DNA of 64,000 nt, taken from assembly GCF_022348185.1 (NCBI RefSeq), contig NZ_JAKRFD010000010.1:1-64000 (forward strand), given 5' to 3'. Source of the DNA: Epibacterium sp. Ofav1-8 (GTDB lineage: Bacteria > Pseudomonadota > Alphaproteobacteria > Rhodobacterales > Rhodobacteraceae). How positions within the stretch are numbered: the stretch's first letter is position 1; each line of letters begins with the position of its first letter. A program made the translations under genes and the position numbers. The notes below the pieces were generated by a model. The model saw only the letters and a list, made by a program, of their open reading frames with translations. It did no database searches and was not told the DNA's origin. Positions 23,936 to 27,660 of this stretch are shown here, in pieces.

Positions 23936-24093
23936 GAGACCAGTCTGCGCCCTCTGGGCGGGGCGCACTGTTCGCTCCGCGACATATTCCTGCCTGTTCC
24001 GGACGTGGGGACGCGCGCGGCTCTTGATGTCCGGGCCTGGCCGGTGGGGTGACGCTCTTGACCTTGCACCTGCGGCGGCGCATGACTTTGCCC

Positions 24094-25290
24094 ATGACAG
24101 AGCGTTTCACAGGCAATTTCACCCAGCAGGAACCCCTTCCGGATGCGGCCATCGCGGCGGCGCTGGAGGTGATGCAGCATGGGCGTATCCACCGATATAA
24201 CCTCGCGGGCGACGAAGCGGGCGAAGTGGCGCTGCTGGAGCAGGAGTTTGCCGCGCAGATGGGGGCCAAATACTGCCTAGCGGTGGCTTCGGGCGGCTAT
24301 GCTCTGGCGACGGCACTGCGGGCGCTGGGGGTGGGGCACGGGGACAAGGTGCTGACCAATGCCTTTACACTGGCGCCGGTGCCGGGGGCCATTGCGTCGG
24401 TGGGGGCAGAGCCAGTGTTTGTCGGCGTGACCGAGGCGCTGACCATCGATCTTGAGGACCTTGAGGCCAAACTGAGCGCCGCCAAGGTCCTGATGCTGAG
24501 CCATATGCGCGGCCATTTGTGCGACATGGACCGTCTCATGCAGATCTGCGATGGCGCGGGTGTGACGGTGGTCGAGGATTGCGCCCACACGATGGGGGCG
24601 GCCTGGAACGGCGTGCCCTCTGGGCGGCACGGGCGGATCGGTTGTTATTCCTGCCAGACCTACAAACATGTGAATTCCGGCGAGGGTGGCCTGCTGGTCA
24701 CCGACGATGAGGAGGTTGCTGCGCGCGCGATCATGTTGTCGGGATCCTACATGCTCTATTCCCGCCACCTGGCCGCGCCTGCGCCCGAGGTGTTTGAGCG
24801 CGTCAAATACGAGACGCCGAATATTTCAGGTCGTATGGACAACCTGCGCGCCGCCATTCTGCGGCCGCAACTGCGCGATCTCGACACTCAGGTGGCGCGC
24901 TGGAACGACCGCTATCGCAGGTTGGAGGCAGGTTTGCGCGACACGCCGGGTCTGACGGTGGTCGAGCGGCCCGAGGCGGAAACCTATGTGGGCTCCTCGA
25001 TCCAGTTCCTGCTGCTGGACTGGTCCGCCGAGGCCGTTCAGGCGGTGCTGTCTCGGTGTGCGGCGCGTGGGGTCGAGCTGAAATGGTTCGGTGGGGCGGA
25101 GCCGGTGGCGTTTACGTCGCGCTATGACAGCTGGCGCTACGCACCGGCACAACGCCTGCCCGAGAGCGACCGCATCCTTGCCGGTATCATCGACATGCGG
25201 GTGCCGCTTACCTTCAGCCTGGAGGATTGCGATCTGATTGCCCGCATTATCCGCGCCGAGGTCAGTGCCGTCTGGCAGACGAGCGGTTGA
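24094..25290 (+). CDS. DegT/DnrJ/EryC1/StrS family aminotransferase
   Basis: This 398-residue PLP enzyme has a type I fold. It contains YCLAVASGGYALATALRALG (PLP phosphate region), VVEDCAHTMGAAWNG (Asp that pairs with the pyridine nitrogen) and SCQTYKHVNSGEGG with the Schiff-base Lys at about residue 191. The usual motif is S-x-H-x-x-K, so the Gln-Thr-Tyr-Lys-His variant is slightly unusual. Family members aminate keto-sugars for surface polysaccharides or act on cyclitols. No other sugar-nucleotide genes are next to it, so the substrate is unknown. Starts at 24082 or 24094 are possible; the second is preferred (MTERFTGNF). Confidence 0.85.
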   Translation: MTERFTGNFTQQEPLPDAAIAAALEVMQHGRIHRYNLAGDEAGEVALLEQEFAAQMGAKYCLAVASGGYALATALRALGVGHGDKVLTNAFTLAPVPGAIASVGAEPVFVGVTEALTIDLEDLEAKLSAAKVLMLSHMRGHLCDMDRLMQICDGAGVTVVEDCAHTMGAAWNGVPSGRHGRIGCYSCQTYKHVNSGEGGLLVTDDEEVAARAIMLSGSYMLYSRHLAAPAPEVFERVKYETPNISGRMDNLRAAILRPQLRDLDTQVARWNDRYRRLEAGLRDTPGLTVVERPEAETYVGSSIQFLLLDWSAEAVQAVLSRCAARGVELKWFGGAEPVAFTSRYDSWRYAPAQRLPESDRILAGIIDMRVPLTFSLEDCDLIARIIRAEVSAVWQTSG

Positions 25291-25602
25291 AGCGCCGGAC
25301 GGTCACATTTCTGATTAAACAGGACCTTAGCGGTGTCGCCCTCCTGACGGAGCGCGACGCAGGTGAGGTTTTGCGCTTTGCTGTGCAAATCGCGGTAGGG
25401 CGCGCCCGCACCTGGGGTGCGGGCGCGCCCGGCCCAACTGGACCGGATGCATGTCTCATGCAGAGGGGACGGGCGGGAGCCCCCCTGGGGGACTGCGCGC
25501 ATCACTGGACTTGACGAATGGGATCCTATTTGCCAATAAATGAACAAGTGTTCAGATAATCAGAGTGACTCGAACGCGACTGGCTCGGGAGGAGACGCGC
25601 AA
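25291..25602. promoter_or_regulatory. Intergenic region upstream of liuA: strong hairpin and candidate operator
   Basis: This 312-bp gap has no credible gene. It holds a perfect 15-bp stem, all G-C, at 25398-25412/25416-25430 with a 3-base loop and no T-tract; each arm contains GGCGCGCC. Closer to liuA, TTGACG (25511-25516) is a possible -35, with a weak A/T-rich -10 near 25534-25540. It is followed at once by the inverted repeat TGAACA-AG-TGTTCA (25541-25554), well placed for a repressor at the transcription start. GGGAGGAG (25587-25594) is the liuA ribosome binding site. Confidence 0.55.
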
Positions 25603-26766
25603 ATGTTCAACGCAAGCATGACATTCGATCTAGGCGAGGACGTGAACGCCCTGCGCGACATGGTGCACCGCTGGGCGCAAGAGCGCGTCAAGCCGATGGC
25701 GCAGGAGATCGACCAGAAGAATGAATTCCCCGCCGACCTCTGGAAAGAGATGGGCGAGCTGGGCCTTCTGGGGATCACCGTGGATGAGGAATATGGCGGC
25801 GCGGGCATGTCCTATCTGGCGCATACCGTCGCGGTTGAGGAAATCGCGCGGGCCTCGGCCTCGGTATCGCTGTCCTACGGCGCGCATTCCAACCTCTGCG
25901 TCAACCAGATCAAGCTCAACGGCAACGCCGCGCAAAAGGCAAAATACCTGCCGCGTCTGATTACCGGCGAACATGTGGGCGCGCTGGCAATGTCCGAGGC
26001 CGGGGCGGGTTCCGACGTGGTGTCGATGTCGCTGCGCGCCGAAAAGCGCAACGACCGCTATGTTCTGAACGGCAACAAATACTGGATCACCAACGGCCCC
26101 GACGCCGACACGCTGGTGGTCTATGCCAAGACCGATCCCGAAGCAGGCTCCAAAGGCATCACCGCCTTCCTGATCGAGAAGGAATTCAAGGGATTCTCCA
26201 CCTCCAAACATTTCGACAAGCTCGGAATGCGTGGGTCGAACACCGCCGAGCTGGTGTTCGAAGACGTCGAAGTGCCGTTCGAAAACGTGCTCGGCGAGGA
26301 GGGCAAGGGCGTGCGCGTTCTGATGTCCGGTCTGGATTACGAACGCGTGGTGCTGGCAGGCATCGGCACCGGGATCATGGCGTCGTGCATGGATGAGATG
26401 ATGCCCTATATGGCCGAACGCAAACAGTTCGGCCAACCGATCGGGAACTTCCAGCTGATGCAGGGCAAAATCGCCGATATGTACACCGCGATGAACACCG
26501 CACGCGCCTATGTCTATGAGGTCGCAAAGGCCTGCGACAAGGGCACGGTGACCCGTCAGGATGCGGCTGCCTGCTGTCTCTATGCCTCCGAGGTGGCGAT
26601 GACGCAGGCGCATCAGGCGGTGCAGGCCTTTGGCGGTGCGGGCTATCTGAGCGACAACCCGGTGGGTCGGATCTTCCGCGATGCCAAGCTGATGGAAATC
26701 GGTGCGGGCACATCGGAAATCCGGCGCATGCTGATCGGGCGCGAACTGATGGAGTCGATGGCGTGA
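25603..26766 (+). CDS. liuA: Isovaleryl-CoA dehydrogenase
   Basis: This 387-residue acyl-CoA dehydrogenase contains the family signatures [14 protein letters not shown] and [20 protein letters not shown]. The catalytic Glu lies in [11 protein letters not shown], the location used by isovaleryl-CoA dehydrogenases, while the usual C-terminal site is replaced ([11 protein letters not shown]); this specifically supports isovaleryl-CoA over short/medium-chain acyl-CoAs. It oxidises isovaleryl-CoA to 3-methylcrotonyl-CoA, passing electrons to ETF. The ATG at 25603 follows GGGAGGAG; a longer frame from 25540 would include the operator. It is the first gene of the leucine cluster. Its 3' end is duplicated 550 bp downstream (see 27279-27301), a sign of an insertion just behind it. 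Confidence 0.93.
26729..26751 (+). repeat. 23-bp direct repeat in the liuA 3' end, copy 1
   Basis: The core GATCGGGCGCGAACTGATG and the four bases before it are identical to 27279-27301. In both copies it is read in the same frame and encodes LIGRELM, the conserved C-terminal end of acyl-CoA dehydrogenases. Confidence 0.9.
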
Positions 26767-27224
26767 AAGGCTGGTCGGTCTGGATGATGCTACTGCTGTC
26801 GGGACCAGCGCTGGCCGCGCCGGACGCAGCGGCGCTGACCGAGTTCGAAACCTGTGTGGCAGAGACGTTTGTGAGCGAGCAGAACAATCCATTTGCGGGA
26901 CTGGGTGTTCCGGTAATCTGTGGAGAGCGACATATCCCAATCGAGCAAAGTTGTTCGCTACTGAAGCGACTTGCCAGCCCGGTAGACTGTCTTGATGCGG
27001 ATCACGCCTACTGGAAGGCTGAGTTCGAGGCGATATTGACGACCGAAGGTGTAGAAGAGCTTGCGGGGCCGTCGCTGTTCCGGTCCGGTAGGAAAAGGTG
27101 CGCAGAGTTATCTGAGGAAGGCGTCGCACTGCGCAGTTGTGAGACGGAGGTCTATTGGAGAGAGGTAGTCGTCATCTGGGCCATGCCAGTGATCGAACGG
27201 GTCGTGGCTCAAGGAGGCGATTGA
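26763..27224 (+). CDS. Secreted cysteine-containing protein, inserted behind liuA
   Basis: The GTG start at 26763 overlaps the liuA stop (GTGA), and the TGA overlaps the next ATG. The 153-residue product has a signal peptide ([18 protein letters not shown], cleavage near residue 19). The mature domain has seven cysteines (for example [28 protein letters not shown] and [10 protein letters not shown]) and is rich in charged residues. I do not recognise it. GC is near 50% in its middle part, well below the neighbours. It lies exactly between two copies of the liuA 3' end, so it was most likely inserted into the operon. A role in leucine breakdown is not implied; a periplasmic inhibitor- or immunity-like protein is one untested idea. 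Confidence 0.7.
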
Positions 27225-27316
27225 TGTCACTTCGCAAGTTTTTCGTGCCGTTGATGGTGCTGACTTGTTGCGTTTCGGTGCTGATCGGGCGCGAACTGAT
27301 GTCGCATATGAGCTGA
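27224..27316 (+). pseudogene. 30-codon remnant: new N-terminus fused to an old liuA tail
   Basis: ATG at 27224 to TGA at 27316 gives SLRKFFVPLMVLTCCVSV, a hydrophobic start like a signal or membrane segment. It then runs directly into LIGRELMSHMS, which matches the end of liuA ([11 protein letters not shown]) in the same frame. The simplest reading is that the inserted DNA carried the beginning of a second gene that now runs into the displaced original end of liuA. It is probably not functional, although it is translationally coupled on both sides (TGATG overlaps). Confidence 0.65.
27279..27301 (+). repeat. 23-bp direct repeat, copy 2 (displaced original liuA end)
   Basis: Identical to 26729-26751. 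Downstream codons TCG CAT ATG AGC TGA resemble GAG TCG ATG GCG TGA of liuA but have diverged, as expected for the old gene end after an insertion supplied a slightly different one. Confidence 0.88.
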
Positions 27317-27660
27317 TGCGGATCGCCTACTGGATCCCGATTGCGGTGCTGGCGGTGGTGCTGGCCGGGATCGGGTTTCGCTATGGCATCATGCGGCAAG
27401 GCATCACCGAGTCCGATGTGATCACGCTTTATGCGCAACAATACCTTGCCGATCACGCGGGCTCCGGTGGGGCCGGGATAGCGCGGATCAGCGACTGCGC
27501 GGCGCGACCGGCCGAGGGTATCTGGGCCTGGCTGGTGATTACATGCCGCCCGGAGGGATCCGCGTCTGATGCGGGTTTTCGCTACACGGTCAACTGGTTG
27601 GGCGGGCTGATCGACGTGATGCGGCCGGGGCAGACACCTCCAGCCACGCCGCAGGCCTGA
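27316..27660 (+). CDS. Small membrane-anchored protein, unknown function
   Basis: This 114-residue protein has one N-terminal membrane helix (IAYWIPIAVLAVVLAGIGF) followed by a periplasmic domain. That domain has two cysteines (RISDCAARP and LVITCRPEG) and a conserved-looking end, YTVNWLGGLIDVMRPG. The ATG at 27316 overlaps the TGA of the liuA-tail remnant, which suggests that this gene was originally coupled to liuA before the insertion. Family not recognised. A frame further upstream (27265) reads through the remnant and is not credible. GC is like that of the genomic background, unlike the insert before it. Confidence 0.65.
   Translation: MRIAYWIPIAVLAVVLAGIGFRYGIMRQGITESDVITLYAQQYLADHAGSGGAGIARISDCAARPAEGIWAWLVITCRPEGSASDAGFRYTVNWLGGLIDVMRPGQTPPATPQA

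Follow-up and report, generated by a model that had tools for sequence, protein, structure and literature searches.

A foreign fragment inserted behind liuA in a Tritonibacter genome, with the last codons of the gene exchanged and its old end left downstream

How the final codons of liuA came to be present twice in the genome of Epibacterium sp. Ofav1-8, with a different gene lodged between the two copies, is the question raised by the locus described here. The stretch of DNA that was analyzed (the window) comprises 64,000 nucleotides, corresponding to positions 1 to 64,000 of the forward strand of contig NZ_JAKRFD010000010.1; the genome from which it derives is coded G000, and Tritonibacter mobilis (of which we take Ruegeria mobilis to be the older name) and T. 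scottomollicae are members of the same genus, Tritonibacter. Within the window the sequence TGCTGATCGGGCGCGAACTGATG is found twice at 100% identity, at positions 26729-26751 and 27279-27301, as two copies of 23 nucleotides each that are offset by 550 nucleotides and that both encode LIGRELM, each read in its own open reading frame (ORF); the exact in-frame repeat reported in an initial annotation of this DNA was thus borne out. Fourteen same-strand 18-mers are repeated within 3 kb in the 64-kb window; this pair accounts for six of the 12 that were listed and is the longest repeat among them. The features of the locus, all on the plus strand, are as follows.

25600 to 26766, plus strand: liuA, a gene of leucine breakdown encoding an isovaleryl-CoA-dehydrogenase-like acyl-CoA dehydrogenase, recognized by its acyl-CoA dehydrogenase domains.
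26729 to 26751, plus strand: first 23-nucleotide copy of the liuA tail and region of the left joint, from the repeat comparison.
26763 to 27224, plus strand: gene X, imported cargo encoding a secreted-looking protein of 153 residues, from comparison with relatives, an X-like gene lying directly 3' of liuA in genome G111.
27224 to 27316, plus strand: fused ORF of 30 residues, in which the start (19 residues) of what is probably a broken foreign gene runs in frame into LIGRELMSHMS, the displaced liuA tail, from the reading of ORFs and the comparison of carriers.
27279 to 27301, plus strand: second 23-nucleotide copy of the liuA tail, being the old liuA end and the region of the right joint, from the repeat and from relatives.
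27302 to 27316, plus strand: remainder of the old liuA end, TCGCATATGAGCTGA, encoding SHMS and a stop, identical to the end of T. mobilis liuA.
27316 to 27660, plus strand: gene Z, a resident gene encoding a protein of 114 residues with a hydrophobic start, common 3' of liuA in the family.

The reading frame of liuA, whose start possibly lies at 25540, ends in ELMESMA with its stop at 26766, and the start codon of X, a GTG, is placed inside that stop. As had been annotated, X is a gene for a secreted-looking protein and is lower in G+C than liuA (58.0% versus 60.8% overall, and 62.3% versus 79.7% in GC3). The 30-residue ORF in turn starts within the stop of X, and its MSHMS end lies within the start of Z at 27316, which confirms the fusion of the second repeat copy in frame and its overlap with the following gene. 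An identical arrangement, spacing included, was found in the genome of T. scottomollicae (G006), which makes an assembly error unlikely; in that genome, 22 and 21 positions of the two copies agree with the 23-mer of the window, and exact identity of the copies is a property of the window genome only.

A search of the DNA of 18 genus genomes, the window's own included, matched the liuA region in 16, with no liuA-region match in G009 and G015. Among these 16, liuA followed by X, the 30-residue ORF and Z was found in the window genome and in G006 only, an insert-free liuA followed by Z was found in four (T. mobilis [G004], G007, G012 and G002), and neither X nor Z was found in the remaining ten. 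The start of Z overlaps the stop of liuA in three of the four insert-free genomes and lies 7 nucleotides behind it in G007, and their single liuA tails read SHMS (G004), GHMS (G007), AHMS (G012) and THMG (G002), which is the arrangement that the initial annotation had anticipated for relatives lacking the insert: one liuA tail, standing before the counterpart of the gene at 27316. A tail of this xHMx type is present in seven of the 14 insert-free genus genomes, three of which (G011, G008 and G010) lack Z; because the tail also occurs in Z-free genomes, it represents the native end of liuA, and the second repeat copy of the window is that end displaced. In T. mobilis, the match to liuA and the match to Z overlap by exactly 23 nucleotides, and these are the repeat. 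Neither of the patterns that had been named as speaking against an insertion was seen: the gene order and its two tails are not common to all relatives, 14 of the 16 genomes being without X, and the ORF at 27224 is not conserved on its own, the full ORF occurring within the genus only together with the insert. Five of the six codon differences between the two carriers' versions of that ORF are nonsynonymous, and the ORF therefore does not appear to be maintained as a protein and is probably a relic. X itself, sought in 61 near and far relatives, was found in G000 and G006 only.

The joints of the insert can be read directly against these empty sites. Comparison of the liuA ends in 10 genus genomes, and of the tails in all 16, indicated that the liuA tail that follows the repeat in the window, GAGTCGATGGCGTGA (ESMA), is present among the 16 only in the two carriers, and these last codons are foreign to the genus. 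The body of the gene is, by contrast, native and lies within the range of the genus, only the last codons being foreign: at whole length the window's liuA is 95.4% identical to that of T. mobilis versus 91.6% to that of G006, and the letters directly before the repeat match T. mobilis. On the right side, the sequence is the same as that of T. mobilis from the old tail through the Z start and into the first bases of Z, and relative to that genome no resident DNA is missing beside the insert, the tail having been duplicated instead. The joints and the spacing are identical in both carriers, and the insert hence had one origin. A foreign fragment of about 550 bases is inserted behind liuA, with the last codons of that gene swapped and its old end left downstream. 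The initial annotation had proposed that a segment of about this length entered at the end of liuA, restored the last codons, and moved the old end downstream; the empty sites uphold the insertion and the displacement, but the end was replaced by ESMA and not restored.

Synonymous divergence between the window genome and G006 is 0.22 for X and 0.10 for the 30-residue ORF, versus 0.44 for liuA, 0.43 for liuB and 0.85 for Z; the lower value for X is significant against liuA, liuB and Z, and is not significant against acs (P 0.31) or ompW (P 0.07). A 4-kb query from the rpoB region placed the window genome at 97 and 95% identity to the insert-free T. mobilis and G007, respectively, and at 92% to G006. 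The patchy distribution of the insert, its low synonymous divergence and the kinship of the rpoB region together suggest that it was later transferred between the lineage of the window and that of T. scottomollicae. In the last two 120-nucleotide segments of liuA, the last of which includes the foreign tail, identity is 96 and 92% between G000 and G006 versus 92 and 87% between G000 and T. mobilis, and since these segments are nearer to G006, the tract exchanged between the carriers may extend into liuA. A gene transfer agent is a possible vehicle for such an exchange: a GTA_TIM gene is present in the window genome (502 bits, at G000:C22:283681-284565, locus L211), and gene transfer agent-like particles are reported from Ruegeria mobilis 45A6 (PMC3419701).

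The same distribution might also be the remnant of an older state, in which liuA, X, the 30-residue ORF and Z, with both tails, were ancestral to the genus and X was lost from the other genomes when the two copies recombined with each other. Direct repeats are a common site of deletion, and the rpoB-region query does not group the two carriers as sisters; many losses would be needed, however, with 14 of the 16 genomes that were read being without X, and the native xHMx tail stands in three genomes that lack Z. The synonymous divergence of the insert, which falls below that of liuA, liuB and Z, further speaks against it, and the fact that the repeat copy is liuA's own end would be left unexplained, such that this history is considered quite unlikely. 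As a separate observation, the DegT-type aminotransferase gene found upstream of liuA (24049-25290) displays a synonymous divergence of 0.7-1.2 to five genus genomes, and of 0.99 to T. mobilis where that of liuB is 0.24; this gene may have been replaced too.

With the insertion established, its structure is best explained, at somewhat better than even confidence, as an insertion-duplication that was generated by homology-facilitated illegitimate recombination (HFIR) from a foreign liuA-X-(third gene) fragment. According to such an account, a linear fragment of a foreign operon of that order would have entered a Tritonibacter cell with the resident order liuA-Z, and the donor liuA end would have paired and recombined with the resident liuA end, so that the resident gene came to end in foreign codons, with X behind it. 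The other end of the fragment, approximately 20 codons into the third gene, would have joined the start of the resident liuA tail via all or part of a short sequence common to both (TGCTGATCGGG), leaving the old tail as a second copy that continues the reading frame of the broken third gene. The tail would be duplicated because the illegitimate joint lies upstream of the homologous joint on the resident sequence.

For HFIR (PMC3240628), joints are reported to display 3-10 bp of microhomology, inserts to measure approximately 1 kb, and products usually to carry a deletion, the process having been reported in S. pneumoniae, A. baylyi and P. stutzeri, and rarely in E. coli. The window resembles those products in that one joint lies in homology (the left joint being within the end of a liuA that is otherwise native to the genus) and the other lies apparently at a short shared stretch, in that the insert is of the usual size class, and in that no recombinase is needed. 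It differs from them in that the resident end is duplicated, where a resident deletion is usual though not universal, and in that the donor and the microhomology are ones that we infer. The presence of foreign codons before X indicates that the donor would have carried a liuA end; no donor locus was found among the genomes searched, and the short shared stretch and the third gene are likewise reconstructed. Stretches of 8-11 nucleotides of the 23-mer are present in six of 69 other Z starts, and in two of these six (L133 and L144) at the codons of the fusion, both figures being raw counts without a chance control. None of the titles and abstract openings listed for HFIR, for Tritonibacter and gene transfer agents, for microhomology insertion, for LprI, and for recombination hot spots of Roseobacter or isovaleryl-CoA dehydrogenase was found to describe this locus.

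An identical end product would arise if a preformed small circle, consisting of X and a liuA tail and closed by the joining of liuA to the third gene, had integrated by a single crossover within the 23-nucleotide tail. That length is very short as homology for a crossover, and the route, which is regarded as unlikely, would call for the same illegitimate joint and for an extra step of circularization; no plasmid, phage or viral contig that carries X was found. In its favor, both joints do fall in the same 23 nucleotides and direct repeats are the invariable product of a single crossover; for E. coli, linear DNA that is ligated into circles and then undergoes a single crossover is described (PMC3240628). 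The linear fragment with one homologous and one illegitimate joint is still preferred, and we regard the locus as the record of a gene transfer of an ordinary kind whose joints are unusually clear.

A repeat-flanked insert at the 3' end of a gene also resembles the attachment sites of integrases, and the initial annotation had drawn a parallel to integrase sites at tRNA genes. The likeness extends to an insert at a gene end, a reading frame that is kept, and an old end displaced as a direct repeat; the differences are that no integrase was found here, that the new end is unlike the old, and that there is no convincing second use of the site. No recombinase domain was found among six neighboring proteins or recognized in X, the 30-residue ORF or Z, no tRNA is present within the 64-kb window, and X was absent from the plasmid, phage and viral-contig collections in which it was sought. 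A scan of 164 loci (some genomes being counted more than once) for duplicated tails, in which the shuffled maximum was 15, gave a score of 23 for the window and 14 each for T. scottomollicae, L177 and L094; only the window's duplication exceeded the shuffled range, in a scan of limited power that also left the true T. scottomollicae copy within that range. A near-copy of 15 nucleotides in L142 (score 12) was rejected, no clear liuA tail standing directly before the Z start. The parallel gained no support: the locus gives no sign of a reused, site-specific mechanism, and it is very unlikely that a site-specific element or transposon targets the liuA end and makes the repeat.

The cargo does not have the appearance of a mobile element, and its nature is consistent with an origin behind another liuA. 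The X protein has a signal-like start and six cysteines, four of which are invariant in a joint alignment, and a search of 394 family genomes gave four matches, of which the single strong one outside the genus, and the nearest relative of X found there (G111, E 1.6e-7; 38% identity over 60 residues), lies directly 3' of liuA with the same GTGA overlap, and is followed, as in the window, by ompW on the other strand. A family-wide profile search for X reached 17 of the 394 genomes at E up to 0.1; across the 18 loci of those genomes and two earlier weak matches, liuA adjoins only in the window's genome and in G111. Genes occupying the same place are frequent: among the best 80 named liuA loci of a longer list, 14 (the T. 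scottomollicae X included) carry a gene for a protein of 153-186 residues with a signal-like start that begins in the liuA stop, and 11 of 13 other proteins from this slot, aligned together, match LprI (PF07007). X shares with the LprI genes behind liuA in other Rhodobacterales its place, its overlap with the liuA stop, its signal-like start and its six cysteines, but differs from them in giving no PF07007 match in Pfam at E up to 1 and in matching the LprI-like set only weakly at the profile level (probability 13%, E 0.0022). X, a possible divergent LprI protein, thus resembles that family in position and appearance only. Its fold was modelled twice (pLDDT 40.8 and 62.7) and neither prediction was good enough to be placed among known folds, the second having used an alignment that presupposes LprI homology; that second model gave no match in the PDB at E up to 0.001.

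Elsewhere in the family, such a secreted, cysteine-rich gene (mostly of the LprI family), Z, or both frequently stand behind liuA. Z, which has no Pfam match and no NCBIfam match above cut-off, is present in 74 of the 394 family genomes, and at 61 of the 70 Z loci that were read liuA lies upstream on the same strand, within 190 nucleotides in 48 and with a gap of 398-786 nucleotides in 13. Eight of the 13 gaps, that of the window included, are filled by a secreted-looking, cysteine-rich gene that starts in the liuA stop; L094, L081 and L102 are among the other loci with the order liuA, secreted gene and Z, which is an established one in the family. Given that order, the donor's own Z is the likely identity of the broken gene behind X. 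The head of the ORF at 27224 scored without significance against a Z profile (its score was equalled or exceeded by 196 of 981 controls and by 878 of 5000 shuffles); in pairwise comparison Z was favored over 958 ORF controls, and against shuffles only the mean was unusual (2 of 500), with the maximum reached by 30 of 500. The G006 version of the head was not unusual (58 and 144 of 500 shuffles), and genuine signal peptides reached scores against Z as high as those of the head of the ORF at 27224. Z (27316-27660 in the window, and loci L132-L201) is an uncharacterized small protein that may have a function connected to the liu pathway.

The motif AAGGAGG precedes the start of the 30-residue ORF and no such motif is found at the start of Z, and with the end of the ORF lying in the Z start, the ORF may hand ribosomes to Z as liuA would have done before the insertion. 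It can be proposed tentatively, and with less than even confidence, that the end of liuA serves the family as a cargo slot, in which fast-evolving secreted genes are swapped via recombination anchored in its conserved final codons, with each gene translationally coupled to liuA on arrival, and that in the window a remnant has been kept in frame as a 30-codon translational coupler for Z. The locus provides a natural case, in a marine bacterium other than the few laboratory species used to measure such recombination, where both joints of a transferred fragment are readable against empty relatives, and it draws attention to the place behind liuA as a slot that is shared widely and is occupied by LprI-like secreted proteins and by the uncharacterized Z.

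Three further observations were made during the reading of these loci. In L066, L082 and L098, a second secreted, cysteine-rich gene, LprI by look, lies directly behind the first gene after liuA. A locus titled Nocardioides marinus DP1N28-1 (L039) carries a liuA 95% identical to that of the window in a Rhodobacterales gene order, and is probably a mislabelled or mixed assembly. In L076, L142 and L186, a different cargo, a membrane protein of approximately 130 residues, is found behind liuA and before ompW or Z.
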